In this document: positions 49,810 to 60,964 of the stretch, in pieces
How the letters are laid out: every line of letters starts with the position of its first letter
Position numbering within the stretch: the stretch's first letter is position 1
Assembly: GCF_024637875.1 (NCBI RefSeq)
Contig: NZ_CP102451.1
Coordinates: forward strand, 1,491,001-1,555,000
Origin: Vagococcus luciliae
GTDB taxonomy: Bacteria > Bacillota > Bacilli > Lactobacillales > Vagococcaceae
DNA length: 64,000 nucleotides
Reading direction: 5' to 3'
Position numbers and translations under genes: made by a program
The notes under the pieces: model-generated
What the model was told of the DNA's origin: nothing
Seen by the model: only the letters and a program-made list of their open reading frames with translations
Databases searched by the model: none

Positions 49810-51012
49810 CTATTTTATTTTTCCTTCATAATCAGAAAGGTTTAATCCTTTTAAATGATTAATATCTGTTCCGGTTGAAATACCAACACCTCGTGTTTCG
49901 TCATATCCGATTCCACTATAGAAAATATGATATTGGCTTCCTTCTTTTAGCATTGTACTTCTATATAAGCCTTTGCCATCGAATCCTACACGTTTTCCTG
50001 AAGGGAATATAATAGGTTTTAAGGTATCCCATTTTTTATTATCTGATGATTTAGAGTAGTATAGGTTCATAACATGACGATCGGATAATTTATAGTCACC
50101 ATTTGATTTAAATCCAACCACAATCATTTCATAACCTAAATCAGTTTTTTGTACATCTAAATGCCAATGATGCATATTATCTTCTTCATAAGGAACAATT
50201 ACTTCAACAGGTTTACTCCACTTTTTACCATCTACACTATTTCTAGTCCAAATCTTATATCCGTGAGCGACATACCACACTTTATATCCATTTTCATCTT
50301 TAATAAATACAGGTGATATCCAGTCTTCACCAGGTTTTGTTCCATTGAATACAATTTCTTTTGGTGTCCATGTTTTTCCATCTGTTGAGGTTCGTTTATA
50401 AATAATTGATTTTTTATTAATGTCATCAACATAGCGCCAAAAAACTTCTAGACGATTATCTTCCTTGTTATAAATGATATGAGTATCAGAATCATATTGC
50501 ATGGGTGTATTATTCTCATTGAATTTTTCACTTTTGGGTTCGTCCAAAGGATTGGCTTCATTTGGAATCCAAGAAACTAAATCATTTGATTTAAATACAT
50601 GCGGGTTTTCATAAATTGCTTTCCCTTTTGGATAGGGAGTGACAGCCATCCAGTATTTATAGCCGCCCAAAGGTTCGTCAAGAGCGACAACAGAAGGGTG
50701 CGTAGCATCTATACTTCCATAAACAGAAGGCAAAGTTAATCGTTCTGTCGCATTTGCTTCAGTTTTAATTTTTTGTCCATTGTATGTAACGACATTACTG
50801 TGATTGATCGTTCCTTTTTTTAATTGAACATATTGTTTTGCTGGACTATAAACCAATACACCTCCACCTATGACTAAAATAATCATTAAAATATTTAATT
50901 TTTTATTTTTTAATTCTTTTTTGAAGAGATAGCGGTAAATGAAATAAGATATAGCAAATACAGCTAAACCTATTCCAACAACACCTAATAGAACCGTTCT
51001 AAAGCGTAACAT
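49810..51012 (-). CDS. Membrane-anchored beta-propeller (glycosyl hydrolase 43/sialidase-like) protein
   Basis: Protein of 400 residues with two N-terminal membrane helices (about 7-29 and 39-56) and an extracytoplasmic domain of about 330 residues. That domain holds repeated propeller-style blades: KSNDLVSWIPN, TSTDGKTWTP, NSVDGKKWSK and SKSSDNKKWD mark successive Asp-box-like turns. The pattern resembles five-bladed furanosidase/sialidase folds that act on glycans. I do not see an assured catalytic triad. ATG 51012 lies 13 bases from AAGGAG. Its role in cell-surface polysaccharide metabolism is a guess. Confidence 0.7.
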   Translation of the reverse strand: MLRFRTVLLGVVGIGLAVFAISYFIYRYLFKKELKNKKLNILMIILVIGGGVLVYSPAKQYVQLKKGTINHSNVVTYNGQKIKTEANATERLTLPSVYGSIDATHPSVVALDEPLGGYKYWMAVTPYPKGKAIYENPHVFKSNDLVSWIPNEANPLDEPKSEKFNENNTPMQYDSDTHIIYNKEDNRLEVFWRYVDDINKKSIIYKRTSTDGKTWTPKEIVFNGTKPGEDWISPVFIKDENGYKVWYVAHGYKIWTRNSVDGKKWSKPVEVIVPYEEDNMHHWHLDVQKTDLGYEMIVVGFKSNGDYKLSDRHVMNLYYSKSSDNKKWDTLKPIIFPSGKRVGFDGKGLYRSTMLKEGSQYHIFYSGIGYDETRGVGISTGTDINHLKGLNLSDYEGKIK

Positions 51013-51019
51013 AAATTAA

Positions 51020-52720
51020 TTAACACTCCTTTATTTTTTTAATTTCATTAATTTCTGGGGTAACGAATAATGTTTTTTGATTTTCATAAATGACAAATCC
51101 AGGTTTAGCACCATTTGGTTTTCTCACATGTTTCACGGCAACATAATCTACAGGAACGGAAGCCGAAAGACGATATTTAGAATAGTAAGCTGCAAGCAAT
51201 GCAGCTTCTAGTAACGTCTGATCACTTGGATTATTATTTTTTATAATGACATGAGAGCCAGGAATATCCTTAGTGTGTAGCCAAATATCATTTTTATTGG
51301 CAGTTTTCAGTGTTAACTGATCATTTTGAATATTATTTTTCCCAACATAAATTATATCGCCATCACTTGATATAAATTGCAATGGTTTAGAAGGGTTATT
51401 TTTTTGTTTTTTCTTATCTTTTGTTTTATTTTTAATGTATTTTTCAGCAATCAATTCATCTCTGATTAGTTGTACATCACTAGGTGACGCAATATCTAAT
51501 TGTGCTAAAACTGACTCTAAGTAGAGTAATTCATATTTTGTAATATTTAGCTGTTCTTTTACCACAGCCACACCATTTTTAAGTTTTTGATAACGTTGGA
51601 AGTACTTTTGTGCATTTTGGTTTGGTGTAAGAGCCTCATTTAAACTAATCGTGATTGGTTCATCATTATCATAATAATTTGGCAATTTAACACTTGTTGC
51701 ACCACGTTTTACTTCATGTAAAAATGTTGTGAGAAGTTCTCCTTTGATACGGTAAATCTCCGCATTATCAGCATCAACAAGTTGTTTCTCTAAAAGTTTC
51801 GTTTTCTTTTTCAATTTGTTAATATCATTTGTCACTTTTTTAATCAGCTCACCAGCTTGTTGTTTTACACGATCTTTTTCAGCCTTACCTTCATAAAAAG
51901 CATCCAGCATGTCACTAAGTGTGTCAAAATGTGAAAGTTCTTCATCAAAAGTTTGATAGGGGATAGGGGCAAAACGTTCTTTTTGATTCACTAAACCAAT
52001 TGTTGGATTTAAATGATTAGTCATTTCATGAAAAAAGTTTGTCCAAGTTGTCACTTTATCAGTATCACTTTTTATTAAGCGATAAACTAGCTCATTTGCA
52101 GTATCTTTAGAGAATCCTTCAAACTGTTGTTGAATGGCTTGTGGTGTAATATCTGTCATACTATTTAACTCTTTGAACAACTCTTCTTTATTTACTGTCC
52201 AAGGATTTTGTGTGTTTTTTAGTGGGGGAGTAATGTAGTCAGCTCCTGGTAAAAGTAAACGATAACTATTTTGACTCATTCCGACATGTTTGATTGTATC
52301 AATAATTTTTTGTGTGTCTTTATTTAATAAGATAATGTTACTATGTCTACCCATTAATTCTACAATTAAAACAATACTCTCCAAATCACCTAAATCATTA
52401 CGGCTTTCAAAAGAAAAGGAGATAATTCGATCATTATTTGTTTGTTTAATTTCTTGTAAAATACTGCCTTCTAAATACTTTCGTAGTGTCATACAAAAGT
52501 TAGGTGGGGTAGAAGGGTTCTTATATTTAATATTTGTTAGTTGAATACGCGCATAATTTGGATTCGCTGATAATAAAAGTGTGTGATTTTTTGAGTTATT
52601 TCTAAAAACCAACATCAATTCATTATCATAGGGTTGATGAACTTTTGATAGTCTTCCATTGGTTAATGTATCTGATAATTCGTTTACCATTAAATGAGTA
52701 AATATACCGTCAAATGACAT
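51020..52720 (-). CDS. rqcH: Ribosome quality control protein RqcH (NFACT / FbpA family)
   Basis: Adds C-terminal Ala tails to nascent chains on stalled 50S subunits, marking them for degradation. Older names are fibronectin-binding protein A. The 566-residue protein has an NFACT-N domain (start MSFDGIFTHLMVNEL, with the conserved DR pair near NNDRIISF), a central coiled coil (about 260-430) and NFACT-R with DIWLHTKDIPGSHV near the C-terminus. ATG at 52720 follows AAAAGGAGG; a longer frame from 52834 overlaps the neighbouring gene. Rather conserved across low-GC Gram-positives. Confidence 0.93.
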   Translation of the reverse strand: MSFDGIFTHLMVNELSDTLTNGRLSKVHQPYDNELMLVFRNNSKNHTLLLSANPNYARIQLTNIKYKNPSTPPNFCMTLRKYLEGSILQEIKQTNNDRIISFSFESRNDLGDLESIVLIVELMGRHSNIILLNKDTQKIIDTIKHVGMSQNSYRLLLPGADYITPPLKNTQNPWTVNKEELFKELNSMTDITPQAIQQQFEGFSKDTANELVYRLIKSDTDKVTTWTNFFHEMTNHLNPTIGLVNQKERFAPIPYQTFDEELSHFDTLSDMLDAFYEGKAEKDRVKQQAGELIKKVTNDINKLKKKTKLLEKQLVDADNAEIYRIKGELLTTFLHEVKRGATSVKLPNYYDNDEPITISLNEALTPNQNAQKYFQRYQKLKNGVAVVKEQLNITKYELLYLESVLAQLDIASPSDVQLIRDELIAEKYIKNKTKDKKKQKNNPSKPLQFISSDGDIIYVGKNNIQNDQLTLKTANKNDIWLHTKDIPGSHVIIKNNNPSDQTLLEAALLAAYYSKYRLSASVPVDYVAVKHVRKPNGAKPGFVIYENQKTLFVTPEINEIKKIKEC

Positions 52721-52742
52721 GGTAAAACCTCCTTTTAAAAAA

Positions 52743-52788
52743 TAAATAAAAGAAGGAGAAACAACAATTAATATGTTATTTCTCCTTT
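52743..52788 (-). terminator. Intrinsic terminator after the zinc-ribbon protein gene
   Basis: On the minus strand AAGGAGAAA pairs with TTTCTCCTT, followed by T-rich sequence. It separates the zinc-ribbon gene from rqcH. Confidence 0.75.
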
Positions 52789-52793
52789 CACGT

Positions 52794-54344
52794 TTAATTT
52801 GGTCCGTTTCCTTTAAACCAACCAGTTTTATCATTAATTGTCACAACATATATAGGGAATTCTTCTGGCTTACTATTTGGAAATAGTTTTGAGTTCTTTG
52901 TAGCATATAAATCATAGAATCCAACACCATTTTCAATAAATTTAGGGACAAGTGTGTAACCACCATCAACAACATACCCTCGACTGATTACTTCAGAAAT
53001 GACTTTTTCTTGTACACCAGCATTCCATGACCAAGCTGGATTTGATAAATCAATGGTGGAATCTTGTCTTGTTCCCCAACGGCCGCCATTGGTTGATGGG
53101 GTAAATGAATGTCCATTTTGAGTGTTATTATTGTCGTTTGTTTGTGCTTGTTGATTATTTTTTTCAGCTTCAGCTTTAGCGGCTTCAGCCTGTTTTGCTT
53201 CTTTTTCTTGACGTTTTTCTTCAGCTTGTTTTTCTTGCTCGTCGATTACTTTACTGACTTTATCTAACGTAGTTTGATAGTCAGATTTTAAGCTAGGATC
53301 TTTGATATCAGCTAATTGTTTCACAGCATCATTATAAACTTGTTTACTTGGTTCATTGACTACTTTATCATCTCTATATAGTTTTTCAAGTGTTGACTCG
53401 AATGTTTTAATAGCAGATTTTTGATTTGTCGCATCCTTAATGGCTTCATTATATAATTTGTCAAAACCATTTTCTTCAGGATCAATTGCTTCAAGAGTTA
53501 GTTTTGTATCATCTTTTACATAGGCATCAGTCAATAATTGATTGCCTTCAATAATAGGTGATTTAAAGGTATCATTAATGGCAGTTAGACGAGTAAATGT
53601 CTTAACAGCTTGCTGTAAGCGTTCATTTAATTTGTCATATTGTTCATTACCTTTTATCTCGTTTACTTTATCTTCGGCATTTTTTATATCTGATTGGGTA
53701 ATACCTTTTTTCAAAAAGATATCTCCTTGATTTTTCATAAATAAATTATCGACAGCCTCTTCAGCGCTAGTTGTCAACTTTAATGTTGTTTCTAATTCAT
53801 GCTGTTTTTTTTGTGAGTTATAGACATACCCCCCACCAAAGACAATGAGTAAAATGATAATCCCTACTAAAATTTTTGTTCTATTATTCTTAGTAGGAGG
53901 AGTATTATTAGATTGTCTCATATCAGATATAGGCGATGTAGACTTAGTTGATTCTTTTTCTTCTTTAATAGAATCTGCTACTTTATCTTCTTCCTCTTGG
54001 GGACGGGGTATAGCAGCCTTATTGACAGGTGTATCCATTTTTTCATCCGAGACAGTCTGTTTATCTTCTGTAATAGGGCTTTGCTTTGTCTCTTCTTCAT
54101 CCATTACTTTCTCATCATTAGTTTGATTAGATAGTGTTCGATGTTTAAACGTTGGGACTGATTGGTTAGATGAGTCATCAGTTGTCTTTTTGTTTAAGCC
54201 TGATTGACTCTCATTTTTTATTGTATCATTAGATATATTATTTTGCTTATCAATCGGAATAAACAAATCACAGTTAGGACAATAGGTTTCTCCTGCTTTA
54301 AATATATGACCACAATTTGGACATTTTTTTACTTCATTGGTCAA
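52794..54344 (-). CDS. Zinc-ribbon single-pass membrane protein
   Basis: Protein of 516 residues. A zinc ribbon (CPNC at 8-11, CPNC at 22-25) opens a long acidic, low-complexity cytoplasmic linker (about 35-150); a single helix follows (about 157-175), then an extracytoplasmic part. That part has helical repeats (about 180-375), a Gln/Glu/Lys-rich hinge (about 380-420) and a C-terminal globular domain with AWSWNAGVQEK. The layout is like TcaA or YvbJ proteins, which sense envelope stress, but I cannot assign function. AAGGAG lies before ATG 54344. It is divergent from the next membrane protein gene. Confidence 0.75.
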   Translation of the reverse strand: MTNEVKKCPNCGHIFKAGETYCPNCDLFIPIDKQNNISNDTIKNESQSGLNKKTTDDSSNQSVPTFKHRTLSNQTNDEKVMDEEETKQSPITEDKQTVSDEKMDTPVNKAAIPRPQEEEDKVADSIKEEKESTKSTSPISDMRQSNNTPPTKNNRTKILVGIIILLIVFGGGYVYNSQKKQHELETTLKLTTSAEEAVDNLFMKNQGDIFLKKGITQSDIKNAEDKVNEIKGNEQYDKLNERLQQAVKTFTRLTAINDTFKSPIIEGNQLLTDAYVKDDTKLTLEAIDPEENGFDKLYNEAIKDATNQKSAIKTFESTLEKLYRDDKVVNEPSKQVYNDAVKQLADIKDPSLKSDYQTTLDKVSKVIDEQEKQAEEKRQEKEAKQAEAAKAEAEKNNQQAQTNDNNNTQNGHSFTPSTNGGRWGTRQDSTIDLSNPAWSWNAGVQEKVISEVISRGYVVDGGYTLVPKFIENGVGFYDLYATKNSKLFPNSKPEEFPIYVVTINDKTGWFKGNGPN

Positions 54345-54519
54345 AAGAAATCGCTCCTTATTATTTTGAATAATTATATTAACCTATATATTATAAACCA
54401 TTCAGTATAAAATTAGTAGTCAAAAAGAAGAATCAATTGCTTAATCTTTCAATATCGACTATTCTCAAAGAAACTTTTTTACGTTATAATGTTCCTAGAA
54501 TAAATAAGGTGGGGAGTAA

Positions 54520-55185
54520 ATGACGGAATTTAAACGGCAAGTAAAAAAACTTTTTCATTCCCTAAAAAAAGTCAATTGGCTAGATATGATTAAGTCAAAT
54601 AAACGCTTTGTTATCATTATTAGTTTAATAACACTTCTTTTTGTGGTTATGTCAGCATTCGTTTCGGCTGTTAGACCAACTATAAGAGAAAAACAACTTC
54701 ATGCTATTTCGGAGTTACAATCTGATAACAAACAAGTTATTCCAACTAAAGAGACAGATATTCAGACTGTTTTATCAGACAAAGAGTCCCATATTGTTGC
54801 TGTAATTGATGCAAAAGGGAATCCAAGTTTATCAACAGTGGAAAAATTATTGACACAGAAAACACCATTGGAAACAATCGATTGGAAAATAAATTATATC
54901 CAACCAATTTATAATTTTACAGATGTTGCAAAAGAATATAAATTAACAGCGAAAAATAATTTTATCGTAATAGAAGATGGCAAAGAAAAAGGAAGATATT
55001 CTTTTGATAAACTAACTGGAGGCCTTGAGGTCTTAGATGAAAAATTAATCGATATTATTGAGCCAAAAATTGCTCGAAAAGAACCTAAACGCATAAAAGT
55101 AGCTAAAAAAGTTGACGATAGTTTAACTAATTCTACAACGGATAGTAGTACTCGAAAAAAAACGAACGAAGTTATTTTTGAATAA
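54520..55185 (+). CDS. Single-pass membrane protein of unknown function
   Basis: Protein of 221 residues: basic cytoplasmic N-terminus (about 1-29), one transmembrane helix (about 30-50) and an external domain (about 51-190) followed by a Lys/Ser/Thr-rich tail. The external part has an alternating beta pattern around HIVAVIDAKGNPSL, thioredoxin-like at a glance but with no CxxC. The ribosome site AAGGTGGGGAG precedes ATG 54520. The divergent zinc-ribbon protein may share its promoter region. I do not recognise a family. Confidence 0.65.
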   Translation: MTEFKRQVKKLFHSLKKVNWLDMIKSNKRFVIIISLITLLFVVMSAFVSAVRPTIREKQLHAISELQSDNKQVIPTKETDIQTVLSDKESHIVAVIDAKGNPSLSTVEKLLTQKTPLETIDWKINYIQPIYNFTDVAKEYKLTAKNNFIVIEDGKEKGRYSFDKLTGGLEVLDEKLIDIIEPKIARKEPKRIKVAKKVDDSLTNSTTDSSTRKKTNEVIFE

Positions 55186-55189
55186 ATGG

Positions 55190-55218
55190 TTGACAGGTGT
55201 TCATTTTAGCGGTATTAT
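55190..55218 (+). promoter_or_regulatory. Promoter of the trp leader and trpXYZ
   Basis: A consensus -35 TTGACA (55190-55195), 17 bases, then TATTAT (55213-55218), with TATAAT overlapping at 55216-55221. It overlaps the preceding gene end by a few bases. Confidence 0.8.
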
Positions 55219-55252
55219 AATAGCAAATTTAAAACGAAATGAGGAAATTGCC

Positions 55253-55321
55253 ATGAAAAAACAAGAAAACAATCAAACCATTCTTTTAAATAATGTATCA
55301 TGGCAAACTTGGCGTAGATAG
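55253..55321 (+). CDS. Tryptophan leader peptide (22 residues)
   Basis: ATG 55253 follows GAGGAAA. The peptide ends SWQTWRR and stops at TAG 55319-55321. Its Trp codons are at 55301-55303 and 55310-55312, near the end, as expected for ribosome-mediated attenuation. The following genes encode an ABC transporter of the TrpXYZ type, supporting tryptophan as the signal. It was found by reading the leader, since it is far too short to score as a gene. Confidence 0.85.
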   Translation: MKKQENNQTILLNNVSWQTWRR

Positions 55322-55322
55322 T

Positions 55323-55437
55323 TGTATTTGTACGAGTGTATGGATACAGCTTTTAGAGACTTTCTAAAGATGTATCTATGCTAAGGAATAATCAGACATA
55401 TCCTACCGCATAGAAATCATATCTATGCGGTTTTTTT
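55323..55437 (+). ncRNA. Trp attenuator with mutually exclusive hairpins and terminator 1
   Basis: Five segments can pair in turn: 0 (55323-55332, TGTATTTGTA), 1 (55339-55348, TATGGATACA), 2 (55371-55381, TGTATCTATGC), 3 (55406-55414, CCGCATAGA) and 4 (55422-55430, TCTATGCGG). Segments 3:4 plus a T7 run form the terminator. 2:3 form the antiterminator, strengthened by AGGA / TCCT. 1:2 and 0:1 are the competing upstream pairs; 0:1 uses three wobble pairs. Confidence 0.75.
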
Positions 55438-55447
55438 GTGGAAAAGC

Positions 55448-55488
55448 AAAGACAATAAACCGTTGCATTCGGGTTTATTGTCTTTTTT
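55448..55488 (+). terminator. Second tandem terminator ahead of trpX
   Basis: Perfect stem AAAGACAATAAACC (55448-55461) / GGTTTATTGTCTTT (55472-55485) with a ten-base loop and T-rich 3' side. It lies after the attenuator terminator and before the trpX ribosome site. I found no alternative pairing partner that would relieve it. Confidence 0.85.
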
Positions 55489-55507
55489 ATTTTGAGGAGG
55501 AAAAAAT

Positions 55508-56497
55508 ATGAAAAATCAACGATTAAAATATTCAGTCTATCTTTTAGTATTCGTTTTATTAGGATCATTTGTAATGGGAATGAAAAAACAAGAGACAAAA
55601 ATAGTGAAACCAATCCCTAAAGTTGGCGTCTTGCAATTTGTTAGTCATCCATCTCTTGATTTAATTTATAAAGGATTTGTTGAAGAACTTGAAAGACAAG
55701 GCTATAAAGACAAAGAAACGATTAATATAGATTTTCAAAATGGTCAAGCTGATCAAAGTAAATTATCAAGTATGAGTCAGCAGCTAATTGGTAAAAAACC
55801 CGATGTATTAGTAGGAATTGCTACACCAGCTGCCCAAGCATTAGCTAATCAGACAAAAGATATCCCGATTATTTTAGGGGCAATTAGTGATCCAAAAGCA
55901 GCTGGATTAGTCGAAAGTAATAATAAGCCTGGTGGCAATATTACAGGAGTCAGTGATCAATCACCTGTTGAGGCACAATTGAAATTAATGACACAACTAA
56001 TGCCTGATATCAAGACAGTTGGCGTTATTTATTCATCAGCTGAAGATAATTCTTTATCACAGGTTAATCGTTTTAAAGATATAGCAGAAAAAGAAGGAAT
56101 AGAAGTTAAAACTTATGCAGTTCCTTCTACTAACGAAATCTCTCAAATGACTCACGTTATGACAGGTGAGGTAGATGCTATTTATACTCCAACAGATAAT
56201 ACTATTGCAAATGGGTTTCAAACGATTGTTTCTATTGCAGATGAAGCCAATATCCCTATATTTCCATCTGTCGATACAATGGTTGATGAGGGTGGTGTTG
56301 CAACCATTGGTATTAATCAATATGACTTAGGTGTTCAAACTGCCAAAATGGTAGTTGATAATTTAACAGGAAAAATGACACCAAGTGATACACCTATTTA
56401 TACCTTTAATACAGGCGACTTAGTCATTAACGAAGAAAAAGCACAAAAATTGGGGATTACCATTCCACAGGAGTTAAAAGAGGAGGCTAAAAAATGA
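55508..56497 (+). CDS. trpX: Tryptophan ABC transporter substrate-binding protein
   Basis: Protein of 329 residues of the ABC_sub_bind (TrpX) type with a periplasmic-binding fold: VGVLQFVSHPSLD (about 37-49), PDVLVGIATPAAQALA and an open-close hinge. The N-terminus is a signal-anchor helix (about 9-24) with no lipobox Cys, so it is tethered by that helix rather than a lipid. The leader with Trp codons directs its annotation as a tryptophan transporter; streptococcal TrpX proteins are similar by memory. TGAGGAGG precedes ATG 55508. Confidence 0.85.
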   Translation: MKNQRLKYSVYLLVFVLLGSFVMGMKKQETKIVKPIPKVGVLQFVSHPSLDLIYKGFVEELERQGYKDKETINIDFQNGQADQSKLSSMSQQLIGKKPDVLVGIATPAAQALANQTKDIPIILGAISDPKAAGLVESNNKPGGNITGVSDQSPVEAQLKLMTQLMPDIKTVGVIYSSAEDNSLSQVNRFKDIAEKEGIEVKTYAVPSTNEISQMTHVMTGEVDAIYTPTDNTIANGFQTIVSIADEANIPIFPSVDTMVDEGGVATIGINQYDLGVQTAKMVVDNLTGKMTPSDTPIYTFNTGDLVINEEKAQKLGITIPQELKEEAKK

Positions 56498-57375
56498 TTG
56501 CATCAACAATAGGACAAGGAATATTATGGTCAGTACTAGGCCTAGGCATTTATTTGACATATAGAATATTGGATTTTCCAGATTTAACAACAGAAGGGAG
56601 TTTTCCTTTAGGAGGTGCTGTGTGTGTCACGGCTATTACAAATGGTGTGTCACCTGTTATAGCCACATTGTTAGGAGTTATTGCAGGTATGTTAGCAGGC
56701 TTAACGACAGGATTACTCTACACTAAGGGAAAGATACCAGTCATTCTTTCAGGAATACTAGTGATGAGTGCACTCAATTCAGTGATGTTATTTGTCATGA
56801 AATCACCTAACTTGTCACTGCTTAATAAACCAAAAATCTTTTCATTACTAAACTTTGCTCATTTACCGGCTAATTTTGATGTTATATTGATTGGATTATT
56901 AGTTGTAATCATAGTGATATTTTGTTTATTGTCATTTTTAAATACCGATTTAGGACAAGCTTACATTGCAACTGGTGATAATGAAGTCATGGCAAAATCA
57001 CTAGGTATTCATACAGATAAAATGAAGATTTTAGGACTTGTTGTGTCAAATGGCCTAATTGGGTTATCAGGGGCTTTAATAGCACAAAGTGATGGGTATG
57101 CTGATATCAATAAAGGGATTGGTGTTATTGTCATTGGATTAGCGTCTATCATCTTAGGAGAGCTATTATTTGGAGAACTGACCATGCTAGAGCGATTCAT
57201 TGCAATTGTAGTGGGAAGTATTATTTATCAATTATTGATACTGGCTGTGATTAAATTAAGTTTTGACACAACTTATTTGAAATTCTATTCTTCTGTTATT
57301 CTAGGTATTTGTTTAATTATTCCAGAATTAAGCAAGAAGTTTAGTGAGAAAAAAGGAGGAAGTATCAATGAGTAA
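56494..57375 (+). CDS. trpY: Tryptophan ABC transporter permease
   Basis: Branched-chain-type permease of 293 residues with about eight hydrophobic helices and the TrpY features LDFPDLTTEGSFPLGG and YIATGDNEVMAKSLG (an EAA-like loop). It overlaps trpX by four bases and trpZ by eight bases, so the three form one operon under the leader. Confidence 0.85.
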   Translation: MIASTIGQGILWSVLGLGIYLTYRILDFPDLTTEGSFPLGGAVCVTAITNGVSPVIATLLGVIAGMLAGLTTGLLYTKGKIPVILSGILVMSALNSVMLFVMKSPNLSLLNKPKIFSLLNFAHLPANFDVILIGLLVVIIVIFCLLSFLNTDLGQAYIATGDNEVMAKSLGIHTDKMKILGLVVSNGLIGLSGALIAQSDGYADINKGIGVIVIGLASIILGELLFGELTMLERFIAIVVGSIIYQLLILAVIKLSFDTTYLKFYSSVILGICLIIPELSKKFSEKKGGSINE

Positions 57376-58117
57376 CGCATTAGATATTATCAATGGTGTT
57401 AAAACTATTTCAAGCGGACGTCAGATTATTAATCGTTTAAACCTCTCAATACCTCATGGTGAATTTATGACTATTTTGGGAGGAAATGGAGCAGGTAAGT
57501 CAACTCTATTTAATGTCATCTCTGGTCAATTATTTTTAACCAGTGGTAAAGTAGAACTAAATGGTGAAGATGTGACGAATCAAAGTGAAGAAAATAGAGC
57601 AAAGTATATTGCACGCGTTTTTCAAGATCCTAAATTAGGCACTGCTCCAAGAATGACTGTTTCAGAGAACTTATTATTGGCTCAACTCAGAGGAAAAAAA
57701 AGAGGACTCAAAAAACGTCAATTAGCTCAACAAAAAGAATTTTTCTTTGAACAATGTCAAAAAATAGGAAATGGATTAGAAAATCATTTAGACACACCAA
57801 CTGGTAATCTCTCAGGTGGTCAAAGGCAAGCACTTAGTTTATTGATGGCAACGATTCAAAAACCTGATTTATTATTATTGGATGAACATACAGCCGCTCT
57901 TGATCCTAAAACAAGTCGTCAATTAATGGACTTAACGGAAAAGACAATCTCAGAAAATAATCTAACGTGTCTAATGATTACACACCGTATGGAAGATGCA
58001 TTGAAATACGGCAATCGATTAATCGTGTTAGATTCAGGACAAGTTCAAAAAGACATGGATGAAACACAAAAAAATCAACTAGAACTAGCTGATTTACTAA
58101 TGTTTTTCAATTTATAA
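57368..58117 (+). CDS. trpZ: Tryptophan ABC transporter ATPase
   Basis: ATPase of 249 residues with Walker A GGNGAGKST, Q-loop VFQDPKLG, signature LSGGQRQ, Walker B LLLLDEHTAALDP and H-loop ITHRM. The start is ATG 57368, AAAGGAGGA upstream; a GTG frame from 57344 overlaps that site. Walker B ends in Glu-His-Thr (DEHTAAL), usual for this TrpZ-like group. A terminator follows. Confidence 0.87.
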   Translation: MSNALDIINGVKTISSGRQIINRLNLSIPHGEFMTILGGNGAGKSTLFNVISGQLFLTSGKVELNGEDVTNQSEENRAKYIARVFQDPKLGTAPRMTVSENLLLAQLRGKKRGLKKRQLAQQKEFFFEQCQKIGNGLENHLDTPTGNLSGGQRQALSLLMATIQKPDLLLLDEHTAALDPKTSRQLMDLTEKTISENNLTCLMITHRMEDALKYGNRLIVLDSGQVQKDMDETQKNQLELADLLMFFNL

Positions 58118-58124
58118 CCGAACT

Positions 58125-58160
58125 AAACCTCCCGGAAACACGAATTGGGAGGTTTTATTT
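58125..58160 (+). terminator. Intrinsic terminator after trpXYZ
   Basis: Stem AAACCTCCC / GGGAGGTTT with a 13-base loop and T-rich tail. Confidence 0.85.
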
Positions 58161-58229
58161 AATCTAACTTTTTTTATTTTAAAAAGGATGGTGTATAATA
58201 AAACAAACGAATGGTTAAAAGGAGTTTTG

Positions 58230-58766
58230 ATGATGAATTTTATTGCGTTTGACTTTGAAACAGCCAACTATCAAAAATACAGTGCTTGCTCCATTGCCTT
58301 AGTTATGGTAAAAAATGATGAAATTGTGGGGAGTTATTACTCTCTTATCCAGCCTGAGACAGATTTTCATTGGAAGAATATACAAATACATGGGATAAGG
58401 CCGGAAGATGTGGTTAGTGCCCCCAAGTTTCCAGAAGTTTGGCAAGTGATTAAACCCTATTTCAAAGAAAATCGATTATTCGTAGCACATAATGCTAGTT
58501 TTGATTGCAATATATTAAAAGGATGTTTAGAGTATTATGGTTTAGAGCAACCACATTATTTGTCATTATGTACAGTTCGAACAAGTAAACAATTATTTCC
58601 AGAATTTGAAAACCATAAATTAAATACTGTTAGTGAAAAGCTAGGCATCTCTTTAGACAATCACCATAACGCGTTAGACGATAGTCTGGCTTGTGCCAAT
58701 ATCCTTTTATACCAAGCCAATCATTTTGGTGTGAACCCATTAAAAAAGCTAGTTAAGGTCATTTAA
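58230..58766 (+). CDS. DEDDh 3'-5' exonuclease family protein
   Basis: Exonuclease-fold protein of 178 residues with all catalytic positions: Asp8 and Glu10 (FDFETANY), Asp92 (HNASFDCN), His146 and Asp151 (HHNALDDS). It resembles DNA polymerase III epsilon/DnaQ-type exonucleases of unknown partner. The -10 TATAAT (58194-58199) excludes a start at 58188; ATG 58230 follows AAAAGGAG. The gene end carries its own terminator, whose stem starts inside the last codons. Confidence 0.87.
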   Translation: MMNFIAFDFETANYQKYSACSIALVMVKNDEIVGSYYSLIQPETDFHWKNIQIHGIRPEDVVSAPKFPEVWQVIKPYFKENRLFVAHNASFDCNILKGCLEYYGLEQPHYLSLCTVRTSKQLFPEFENHKLNTVSEKLGISLDNHHNALDDSLACANILLYQANHFGVNPLKKLVKVI

Positions 58767-58790
58767 GAGACTAACTAGCTTTTCTTTTTA
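58742..58790 (+). terminator. Terminator overlapping the exonuclease gene end
   Basis: Arms AAAAGCTAGTTA (58743-58755) and TAACTAGCTTTT (58772-58783), followed by T residues. The 5' arm encodes the final residues KKLVKVI of the exonuclease. Confidence 0.8.
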
Positions 58791-59228
58791 TTTATTTTTA
58801 GGGACTAACTTAATGATCATATCCGTATTATCAATGCTATCAGTTGGGGTTAAGATAATATCTTTTCCTTCATGAGACATTGTATAAATTCCTTTTATGT
58901 CTAGCTGAGTATTTTTAAACGTGATTTTGTCTCCATCAATTGTGTATCGTGATTCGGTTTCTGTATTGTTTGATAGTTCTTTGGCAAATTTTTTTGCAAG
59001 GTCATCTCCAACGTAATCTTTATCTTTTTTATTAAAAGATTTGCTATCAAGTTTAGATAATAACTTATCATGATCAAATCTTACCAATAAAGGTGGGAAT
59101 TGCTCTTCTGATTCTCTAATTAGTGTCCAATCATGCTTAGTAAGTTCTTGTTGGTAATTAGAATTTGTACAGGCAGTTAATGAAAATGTTGCGATAATAA
59201 AGAGTAGTAATGATTTGACATATTTCAT
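58788..59228 (-). CDS. Small lipoprotein of unknown function
   Basis: Protein of 146 residues with a type II signal peptide (MKYVKSLLLFIIATFSLTAC, lipobox LTAC, Cys20). The mature part is charged and beta-rich, ending in DMIIKLVPKNK, without a family I recognise. ATG 59228 follows TTTTGGAGGAAT. It is convergent with the exonuclease gene. Confidence 0.75.
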   Translation of the reverse strand: MKYVKSLLLFIIATFSLTACTNSNYQQELTKHDWTLIRESEEQFPPLLVRFDHDKLLSKLDSKSFNKKDKDYVGDDLAKKFAKELSNNTETESRYTIDGDKITFKNTQLDIKGIYTMSHEGKDIILTPTDSIDNTDMIIKLVPKNK

Positions 59229-59449
59229 AATAATTCCTCCAAAATGTAATAAAAAAACAAATTTTATATTAATACTATAGCATAAAATTTCGTTAAACTG
59301 GTAATAGTTCTTTCTTTTGTTAGATAAAATCTTATTTGTAACAAGAAAAATATTATTTTAATCTTTTTGTGTATAAAATCTAATAAGGACGATTGTTAAA
59401 AGAGTATGATATAATATCAATAAATTATAATTAGTAAGGCGTGGTTTTT

Positions 59450-60964
59450 TTGACGATTTCATTGCACCAAGTAGAAGGATTATTAAAAGAAAATAATTTA
59501 TTAAAAGAATTTATATATAACAATGAGTGGCACTATAATCTTCCCGTTGAGGATAAAACTCTCACTCATTTATCATATGATTCAAGAGATGTATCAAGTG
59601 AGACGCTATTTTTTTGTAAAGGAGCTAGTTTTAAAGTAGAGTATTTAATGGCTGCTATGTCACAAGGGTTATCTGTTTATGTATCAGAGATGCCTTTTGA
59701 GGTGAATGATGGCTTAGGAATCATTGTGACAGACATTAGAAAAGCAATGGCTTTGATTAGTATGGCTTTTTATGATTACCCACAAACGAAATTAAAAGTG
59801 GTTGCTTTTACAGGAACAAAAGGAAAAACAACTTCAGCATATTTTTTAAAATATATATTGGATGAATTTAACCAAAATAAGACAGCAATGTTTTCTACGA
59901 TGAATTCCACACTAGATGGAAAGACTTATTTTAAGTCCCATTTAACAACACCCGAGTCAATGGATTTATATCGCATGATGGCACAAGCAGTTGATAATCA
60001 GATGACACATTTAGTAATGGAAGTATCCTCACAGGCGTATAAGTTAAATCGTGTTTATAAACTAATGTTTGATGTTGGAATTTTCCTTAATATTTCGCCA
60101 GATCATATTAGCCCAATAGAACACCCAACGTTTGATGATTATTATTATTGTAAGAGACAATTAATTCAACATTCGAAACATTTTATTGTAAACAAAGAAA
60201 CAAAAGATGTGGCATTAATTCTAGAAGAAGCACAAGCTAGAAACATCCCAACCCTTACTTATAGTTCGCATGATAAATCTACAACTTATTACTGGGAAAA
60301 GGGAGGAAATGCCTCAAGTTTTAGTGTTGAAGCACAGGAAGATGTACTTGATTTGTGTGATACTTATAAGTTAAGTTTAATGGGTGACTTTAATAAGGAT
60401 AATGCTTTAGCTAGTTTGATGGCTGCTAGACTATTAGGAGTTGATATTAATAGTTGTCAAAAAGGGTTAGAAAAAGCAATTGTTCCTGGTCGAATGGAAA
60501 AACTCATTCAAAAAAATGGCTCTACTGTGTATATTGATTATGCCCATAATAAAGTAAGTTTAACGAGTTTATTAGGATTTGCTAAAAATGAACATCAAGA
60601 TGGAAGAATTATTACTGTGATTGGTAGTACGGGAGATAAGGCAACATCTCGAAGAAAAGACTTTGGTGATGTATTAAATGATTATACTGATATTGTGTTT
60701 CTCACATCTGATGATCCTGGATACGAGGATCCTGTAATGATTATTAATGAAATTAGTCAATACATTACAAATAAAGATGTTATTCAACATATTGTAATAG
60801 ATAGAGAAGAAGCGATTAAACAAGCATTAGATTTAGCTACGAGCCATGATACTGTTATATTAGCAGGAAAAGGTCGAGATTTATATCAAAAAATACAAGG
60901 AAGAGATGTCCCGTATTTGGGAGATTATACCATTGCTGAAAACCACATCTCAAATAAACTATAA
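59450..60964 (+). CDS. murE: UDP-MurNAc-L-Ala-D-Glu:L-lysine ligase MurE
   Basis: Adds the third residue to the peptidoglycan stem peptide. The protein of 504 residues has an N-terminal UDP-binding domain, an ATP P-loop GTKGKTT (Lys126) with HLTTPES, and a C-terminal domain with VIGSTGDKATSRRKDF. The substrate motif is TSDDPGYEDP in place of DNPR, the pattern of Lys-adding enzymes in streptococci and enterococci. Start TTG 59450 gives MTISLHQ; GTG 59441 lies directly after AAGG and is too close. A -10 TATAAT is at 59410-59415. Confidence 0.93.
   Translation: MTISLHQVEGLLKENNLLKEFIYNNEWHYNLPVEDKTLTHLSYDSRDVSSETLFFCKGASFKVEYLMAAMSQGLSVYVSEMPFEVNDGLGIIVTDIRKAMALISMAFYDYPQTKLKVVAFTGTKGKTTSAYFLKYILDEFNQNKTAMFSTMNSTLDGKTYFKSHLTTPESMDLYRMMAQAVDNQMTHLVMEVSSQAYKLNRVYKLMFDVGIFLNISPDHISPIEHPTFDDYYYCKRQLIQHSKHFIVNKETKDVALILEEAQARNIPTLTYSSHDKSTTYYWEKGGNASSFSVEAQEDVLDLCDTYKLSLMGDFNKDNALASLMAARLLGVDINSCQKGLEKAIVPGRMEKLIQKNGSTVYIDYAHNKVSLTSLLGFAKNEHQDGRIITVIGSTGDKATSRRKDFGDVLNDYTDIVFLTSDDPGYEDPVMIINEISQYITNKDVIQHIVIDREEAIKQALDLATSHDTVILAGKGRDLYQKIQGRDVPYLGDYTIAENHISNKL

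Follow-up and report, generated by a model that had tools for sequence, protein, structure and literature searches.

A probable ribosome-sensing leader-peptide attenuator upstream of the trpX transporter genes of Vagococcus luciliae, with sensor codons that vary among its relatives

What does the RNA in front of the trpX transporter genes of Vagococcus luciliae sense, and in which states does it let transcription pass? The window analysed here is a single stretch of 64,000 nucleotides from this genome (contig NZ_CP102451.1, positions 1,491,001 to 1,555,000), and coordinates given without a locus name refer to it. From its letters alone, an original prediction had described a Trp leader-peptide attenuator with an unusual order of five pairing segments, numbered 0 to 4. 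The attenuator of the E. coli trp operon has Trp codons, a terminator formed by segments 3 and 4, and an antiterminator formed by segments 2 and 3, and these are found in the window too. In E. coli the stalled ribosome masks segment 1, whereas in the window segment 1 lies past the stop codon and an extra segment 0 would act instead. The features of the locus are as follows.

55190..55218, + strand: promoter-like TTGACA-17-TATTAT, 11 of 12 positions matching; a lead only, since the region holds 7 such sites in total against 5.7 expected
55254..55321, + strand: leader-peptide ORF MKKQENNQTILLNNVSWQTWRR, with sensor Trp codons at 55301 and 55310 and a TAG stop at 55319
55508..56497, + strand: trpX, tryptophan ABC transporter substrate-binding protein (NF041285, 464.5 bits; cut-off 390), taken to be the controlled gene
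56494..57375, + strand: ABC transporter permease (PF02653), the gene after trpX
57368..58117, + strand: ABC transporter ATPase (PF00005), the third gene

The leader ORF has 22 codons and ends in SWQTWRR before its stop; it is preceded by a ribosome-binding site, GAGGAAAT, and by the promoter-like site, from which transcription would start at about 55226. On re-reading, the Trp codons, the stop and the segments were found to lie where the original prediction had put them. Many relatives have leaders that end in WQxWRR or WQSR. When the untranslated window RNA is folded, a 9-bp helix joins 55248-55256, at the start codon, to 55298-55306, which surrounds the first Trp codon; such a pairing could hold back leader initiation. 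The locus thus has a translatable ORF with fitting sensor codons, and an intrinsic terminator with a mutually exclusive antiterminator, and we consider it very probable that it is a ribosome-sensing leader-peptide transcription attenuator before the trpX ABC-transporter genes. The segments of the RNA are these.

55308..55320, + strand: segment A, the sensor-codon region, predicted by folds to pair with 55373-55385 in untranslated RNA (own-versus-cross p=1.2e-7 and 7.5e-9)
55321..55333, + strand: segment 0, pairs with segment 1; a ribosome at the stop codon would cover most of it
55338..55350, + strand: segment 1, pairs with segment 0 or 2
55351..55369, + strand: apical hairpin separating segments 1 and 2, preserved in alternative folds
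55371..55387, + strand: segment 2 with its 3' flank B, partner of 1, A or 3
55405..55414, + strand: segment 3, 5' arm of terminator 1 and antiterminator partner; 55401-55404 is also used with the 2-B stretch
55422..55437, + strand: segment 4 (55422-55431) and U-tract (55431-55437), the 3' part of terminator 1
55337..55442, + strand: match to RF04312 (the trpB motif), 60.6 bits, gathering threshold 59

Minimum-energy folds bear out the five-segment order with its pairings 0:1, 1:2, 2:3 and 3:4, giving 0:1 as 55321-55333:55338-55350, 1:2 as 55338-55348:55371-55381 and 2:3 as 55375-55381:55408-55414; the terminator helix 3:4 is 55405-55414:55422-55431. The 0:1 helix does keep G-U pairs, which had been named as its weak point. 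One further helix, between the codon region at 55308-55320 and 55373-55385, lies beyond the segments described at the outset. At five related loci (L001, L003, L012, L022 and L027) a TAGAA(A)GTACT-like stretch after terminator 1 complements the apical hairpin between segments 1 and 2.

In the mechanism that we propose, low levels of charged tRNA-Trp would stall the leader ribosome at 55301 or 55310, where it would cover A and leave segment 0 free to pair with 1; segment 2 and its flank would then pair with 3, 3:4 would not form, and trpX would be transcribed. With enough Trp the ribosome would arrive at the stop codon and cover segment 0, so that 1:2 and then 3:4 would form and transcription would terminate. 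Were the leader left untranslated, A would pair with segment 2 and its flank, 2:3 would be blocked, and 3:4 would again terminate. A ribosome held within the sensor codons would be the ON state, and a finished or an untranslated leader the OFF state, with the sensor codons exchangeable – Trp, Tyr/Phe, His or Leu – in family members. Leader peptides, co-varying pairings and an association of codons with genes can be read in the sequences of the relatives, as described below; the ribosome's footprint, the kinetics and the response to starvation we infer.

Ribosome positions were represented in folds by hiding the RNA up to a point 12 bases downstream of where the A-site codon begins, a general value for the ribosome footprint. 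With its 3' end at 55420, the window RNA has 5.8-5.9 bp of 2:3 when the ribosome is stalled at either Trp codon versus 0.1 bp when it is at the stop. These values agree with the original prediction in two respects, namely that a ribosome at the stop covers segment 0, and that one stalled at Trp leaves 0:1 intact and hence allows 2:3. Segment 1 starts at 55338, which is 28 bases downstream of the first base of the last Trp codon, and is, as had been argued, too far away for the stalled ribosome to cover. Across 86 related loci (L020 and L055, in which no terminator was found, were left out), the mean of 2:3 before segment 4 is made was 6.3 bp with the ribosome stalled at the last Trp codon versus 1.6 bp at the stop; in 71 of the 86 the stalled value exceeded that at the stop by >1 bp, and in one it was lower.

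A second run over the same number of loci gave means of 2.5 bp for untranslated RNA, 8.0 bp for stalled ribosomes and 3.1 bp at the stop. When a locus was called ON at 4 bp of 2:3, this held for 71/86 when stalled, 34/86 at the stop and 23/86 untranslated, the other 63 untranslated RNAs having less than 4 bp. In a second set, from which 8 of 50 loci were dropped (seven with no terminator found and one with no ORF), the same rule gave ON in 29/42 at the best stalling codon, 24/42 at the last, 16/42 at the stop and 12/42 untranslated. The fold forecast fails in places, with many loci predicted to be ON at the stop or untranslated and some OFF when stalled; ribosome position is predicted to select the fold in the window and in most, not all, relatives. 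With segment 4 added, the ensembles of every state contain 3:4, so that control must be kinetic, with timing deciding as in other attenuators.

Covariation among relatives, a check proposed along with the original prediction, bears directly on segment 0. In a MAFFT alignment of 86 sequences of Trp, Tyr and Phe types, built without reference to pairing, both sides had changed in 13 of 14 pairs of 0:1, and none of 500 shuffles scored as high; segment 0 does co-vary with segment 1. Cells of 0:1 were paired in 87.9% of cases, versus 33-51% when the alignment was slid by 1-3 columns, and matched changes include AGTTGTAT/ATACAACT, ACTCAGGTTG/CAACCTGAGT and GCTCAGTGTGC/GCATACTGGGG. The best duplex between segment 1 and the stretch after the last sensor codon beat shuffles (p<=0.05) in 84 of 88 loci (83 of 88 in a repeat), and was no better than shuffles at that level in L031, L064, L065 and L080. 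The shuffle test was also passed by 1:2 (88/88 loci), 2:3 (74/86) and 3:4 (86/86), while 0:3 (0/86), 1:3 (2/86) and 2:4 (7/86) were mostly no better than shuffles. Some other pairings beat shuffles as well (p<=0.05) – 0:2 in 26/88, 1:4 in 27/86 and 0:4 in 24/86 – of which 1:4 is to be expected because segment 1 resembles segment 3.

A second order, that of genome G751 and clostridial by inference, gives a similar picture, as segment 0 pairs with segment 1 of its own locus at -19.8 kcal/mol versus -14.3 kcal/mol for cross pairings (n=29, p=5e-6). Conservation and covariation in both the Lactobacillales and this second order make it scarcely credible that the leader is a chance ORF beside an ordinary terminator, with no regulation. 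At 14 of 88 loci the ORF extends into or across segment 0, its stop codon being 8-18 bases downstream of the first base of the 0:1 helix; a model in which the ribosome covers this segment allows such an arrangement. In L002, L004 and L006 the start codon is closely followed by ACAACT (codons QL), which is complementary to AGTTGT of segment 0 and may mask that segment when the RNA is untranslated.

The state without translation is where our reading departs from the original prediction, according to which untranslated RNA reads through. When folding begins at the predicted transcription start or at the ribosome-binding site, the untranslated window RNA has 9.8-9.9 bp of helix between A and segment 2 with flank B (A:2/B), which stacks on 0:1; 2:3 falls to 0.0 and the terminator forms. 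The 2:3 value is 2.4 bp if only the first 45 bases are hidden, as by an initiating ribosome, and 5.2 bp if the fold begins at the start codon, and the forecast of read-through therefore depends on where the fold starts. We also considered a short helix joining the codon region to segment 0 and rejected it, A:0 being 0.0-0.2 in the untranslated window and 0.0 for 3' ends 55390-55420.

The codon-region helix is also visible in comparisons among loci. A codon region pairs with the segment-2 end and flank of its own locus at -9.7 kcal/mol versus -7.3 kcal/mol for cross pairings (n=79, p=1.2e-7); the flank alone gave p=0.29, and two control pairings p=0.06 and 0.88. For the second order the figures are -11.6 versus -6.8 kcal/mol (n=28, p=7.5e-9; control p=0.85), and matched changes of A and the flank there include those at His codons, ATCATCACCA/TGGTGATGAT and ATCATTACTA/TGGTAATGAT, together with AACCA/TGGTT and AGCTAC/GTGGCT. 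A result against the helix comes from the WxxW group (three loci dropped), where a column shuffle that swapped B among loci revealed no covariation and did not lower the pairing (0.936 versus 0.933).

These results bear on the five segments taken by themselves, the model first put forward, in which untranslated RNA also reads through. That model can draw on the 5.2 bp of 2:3 in the window fold begun at the start codon and on the 23 of 86 untranslated loci that reach 4 bp, but the longer folds form A:2/B and leave the window's 2:3 at 0.0, and the own-versus-cross signal of A:2/B appears in both sets of loci, so that we consider it unlikely. We hold instead that untranslated RNA is probably OFF through the codon-region helix. 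In the Salmonella his leader, as described in the accessible part of PMC4046918, untranslated RNA terminates since A pairs with B, and the three states match those of the window: ON when stalled, OFF when finished and, in the window by fold, OFF when untranslated through a sensor-codon helix. In Salmonella A pairs with the next segment, B, whereas in the window A reaches past 0 and 1, which it thereby encloses, to segment 2 with its flank; codons are moreover exchanged among members here, and a second terminator often follows. The word 'unusual' in the original prediction thus suits the pairing topology but not, by the same part of that source, the three-state logic, which is that of Salmonella his.

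Conservation of the peptide ending in many Trp-type loci invites another explanation, a TnaC-like arrest peptide in which WQxWRR would stall at the stop in the presence of free Trp and so prolong the cover of segment 0. Among relatives, however, both the would-be arrest residues and the position of the stop vary: residue x is S, N, T, I, P, A, F or K, versions with a single Trp or with His, Tyr, Phe or Leu exist, and the stop lies further downstream in, for example, L009, L022, L027 and L039. Base pairing of these codons in the codon-region helix could account for the conserved residues beside the sensor codons, and we regard arrest of this kind as very improbable next to stalling at the sensor codons themselves.

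Downstream of terminator 1 the window has one more hairpin.

55448..55490, + strand: second terminator-like hairpin, with segment 5 (55448-55461), segment 6 (55472-55485) and a U-rich tail

A second terminator is found in 61 of the 82 testable loci. Segment 5 can pair with the 3' arm plus the U-tract of terminator 1, a relay pairing that is stronger between sequences of one locus than between those of different loci (p=2.8e-7, n=58; controls 0.64 and 0.94) and beats shuffles (p<=0.05) in 34 of the 58; in the window itself the relay pairing, at -6.4 kcal/mol, is not significant (p=0.50). Two hairpins are present in 24 of 47 loci of a set made up of the second order and Tyr types, where the relay gave p=1.2e-7 over 23 distinct loci in a run without a control pairing. 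Segment 5 resembles segment 3 in the second order, and given this likeness it is conceivable that terminator 2 descends from a duplicated terminator. We treat the relay as a lead, the chances that it is a working part being evenly poised.

The RF04312 model, the 'trpB motif', begins at segment 1 and is without the leader peptide, segment 0 and the codon-region helix. According to the accessible part of its description (Narunsky 2024, PMC11109978), the motif has >900 representatives in Firmicutes and Fusobacteria. It is the same RNA as that of the window, with hairpins 1:2 and 3:4 and a position before amino-acid-type ABC transporters and sometimes trpB. The authors, in the same part of their description, call it a strong riboswitch candidate and do not exclude a protein factor or a classic attenuator. 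Conserved hairpins, a 5'-UTR position and the authors' own assessment would fit an RNA that binds a metabolite, with the leader ORF incidental; the leader codons, however, change with the gene family, and segment 0 co-varies with segment 1 from outside the Rfam model, which leaves a riboswitch very unlikely. A search that reached mostly literature outside subscription found no publication linking the trpB motif to a leader peptide. With leader peptide and segment 0 joined to this motif, two orphan RNA families would find a new explanation as attenuators of the leader-peptide kind.

RF04312 matches (E<=0.001) occur in 27 of 29 genomes of the window's family and in 211 of 395 of its order, and a Trp leader peptide lies just upstream at all 40 above-threshold loci examined, out of 62 in the order sample. 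The 92 RF04312 loci (L001-L092) comprise 84 of Trp type, three of Tyr type (L020, L026 and L088), one of Phe type (L090) and four non-members (L016, L089, L091 and L092), which were rejected as below threshold and without a sensor-codon ORF in the ORF scan. The Trp-type L075 has no recognised start codon, nor has L121, and L015 has no ATG or GTG start. The highest-scoring locus, L031, is without trpX directly downstream; after its terminator the sequence starts GTGCGCCCGGCATG, which we take to be like the end of a group II intron. When the phylum was searched with RF04312, 5 of 398 genomes matched, of which two belong to the window's family and two contribute non-members; this RNA is therefore not a general feature of the phylum. 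The second order has RF04312 matches in 29 of 147 genomes, none above threshold, and matches in 53 of 147 to R1, a model built from 47 sequences of our own loci. In the class, R1 matched 11 of 291 genomes (13 matches), including L132, which has no leader ORF, and L128 and L130, which lie on short contigs and are not readable there.

How widely trpX itself is preceded by the device was seen in a protein scan, in which the nearest trpX to that of the window, among the best 80 of 562 named loci, is from Vagococcus bubulae (95% identical). Among these best 80 of 562, R1 matches lie upstream of trpX in 46, in Vagococcus, Enterococcus, Tetragenococcus and others; R1 matched upstream of trpX in 0 of 33 Streptococcus loci, and the other locus without a match is from Lentilactobacillus kefiri. 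Only L135, of 12 non-Streptococcus loci scanned with Rfam, reaches the RF04312 threshold. A T-box, which reads tRNA directly and without translation, lies upstream of trpX in 7 of 8 Streptococcus loci scanned; positions 50000-60000 of the window have no match to the T-box (RF00230) at E<=5. Both devices stand before trpX, but that of the window would use translation, and one gene is thus served by two different sensors.

For the association of codons with genes, loci sharing a 45-base stretch were counted once, which left 132 (L003, with trpB, was dropped, for example, and L001 kept), and each was assigned the first of the three next ORFs (>=100 codons) that matched a reference. Trp codons stand before trpX (69), trpB (3), trpP (2) and an oligopeptide-binding protein (1), with no gene found for two; Tyr/Phe codons before SNF transporters (21), aroE (9), ABC permeases (4), trpX-like paralogues (4), BrnQ-type transporters (2) and aroF (1); His codons before hisZ (5) and hisS (4); and Leu codons before SNF transporters (5). 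Codon type and gene family share 1.29 bits of mutual information, whereas none of 2000 shuffles exceeded 0.31 (n=130), a result that is no p-value because loci of one lineage are not independent. The codons fit the amino acid of the gene wherever the gene's substrate is known, a set outside which the SNF, BrnQ-type and paralogue transporters fall. Leaders of the second order end in HHHQ, FFFSFFR, YYFSYFS or LLLLANLR.

The accessible parts of two reports (PMC2965389, PMC9413887) describe Firmicutes His leader peptides as short His-codon ORFs before hisS/hisZ or the his operon; by description only, the likeness is to the His type of this family, with its His-codon ORFs before hisS and hisZ. Those parts do not tie the His leaders to the trpB motif or to Trp, Tyr, Phe or Leu versions, and our search, which reached mainly non-subscription literature, found no publication linking the trpB motif or the small RNA sRNA_2410 to His leader peptides.

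The genome of the window has four copies that match R1: the trpX locus at 55254, a Tyr version before aroE, a Tyr/Phe version before a trpX paralogue, and one Trp copy. The paralogue scores 347 bits, under the TrpX cut-off of 390. Such trpX-like paralogues behind Tyr/Phe leaders are found at L234, L230, L231 and L233 (333-347 bits for the three scanned, L230, L233 and L234; cut-off 390) and are possibly tyrosine transporters. The Trp-type attenuator L001/L224 of the window's genome (G000:C1:617212-617361) is followed by no gene in the stretch examined; the related L003 has trpB in the corresponding place, and L001/L224 looks like a remnant after gene loss. At L060 the gene behind a Trp-type attenuator encodes an oligopeptide-binding protein similar to Opp4A (533 bits, below the cut-off of 650).

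A second Rfam family, RF02863 (sRNA_2410), overlaps the Tyr/Phe versions, with many Tyr-type copies from enterococci among its matches. It scores above threshold at 12 of 17 Tyr/Phe-codon loci scanned, which are 11 distinct places, one of them in the window's genome, because L174 and L222 coincide; in a separate scan it was above threshold at L178 as well, and L185 of that scan is the place of L232. RF02863 had no match at the Tyr/Phe loci L234, L020, L026, L088 and L097, or at the Trp, His and Leu loci scanned (L223, L110 and L098). In the accessible part of PMC5593968, sRNA_2410 of Enterococcus faecium is a 195-nt RNA with two transcripts on Northern blots, 2.3-fold (RNA-seq) or 4.1-fold (qPCR) higher with daptomycin; 'leader' and 'attenuat' are absent from the main text. 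Two transcripts would suit two terminators. The 5' ends of the RF02863 matches (e.g. L227:1500-1688) coincide with the sensor codons, the expected beginning of the codon-region helix, and are perhaps a decay stop. Our results suggest that the RF04312 riboswitch candidate and the RF02863 small RNA are versions of one device.

The several lines can be joined in one reading, whose chance of being right as a whole we put no higher than of being wrong: a codon-programmable family in the Lactobacillales and a clostridial-looking order, in which codons are swapped with a compensating flank; a band-pass response, ON only with a ribosome on the codons; a terminator 1 whose 3' arm and U-tract act as the antiterminator of terminator 2; RF04312 and RF02863 as two versions; and codons that forecast transporter substrates. 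A published riboswitch candidate and an Enterococcus small RNA would then become one understandable device, and for trpX there would be a translation-based alternative to the T-box within one bacterial order. Since the sensor codons name an amino acid, the leader may be used to forecast the substrate of an uncharacterised transporter, such as the trpX paralogue behind Tyr/Phe codons, and the exchange of codons would be a natural example of a re-programmable amino-acid sensor.
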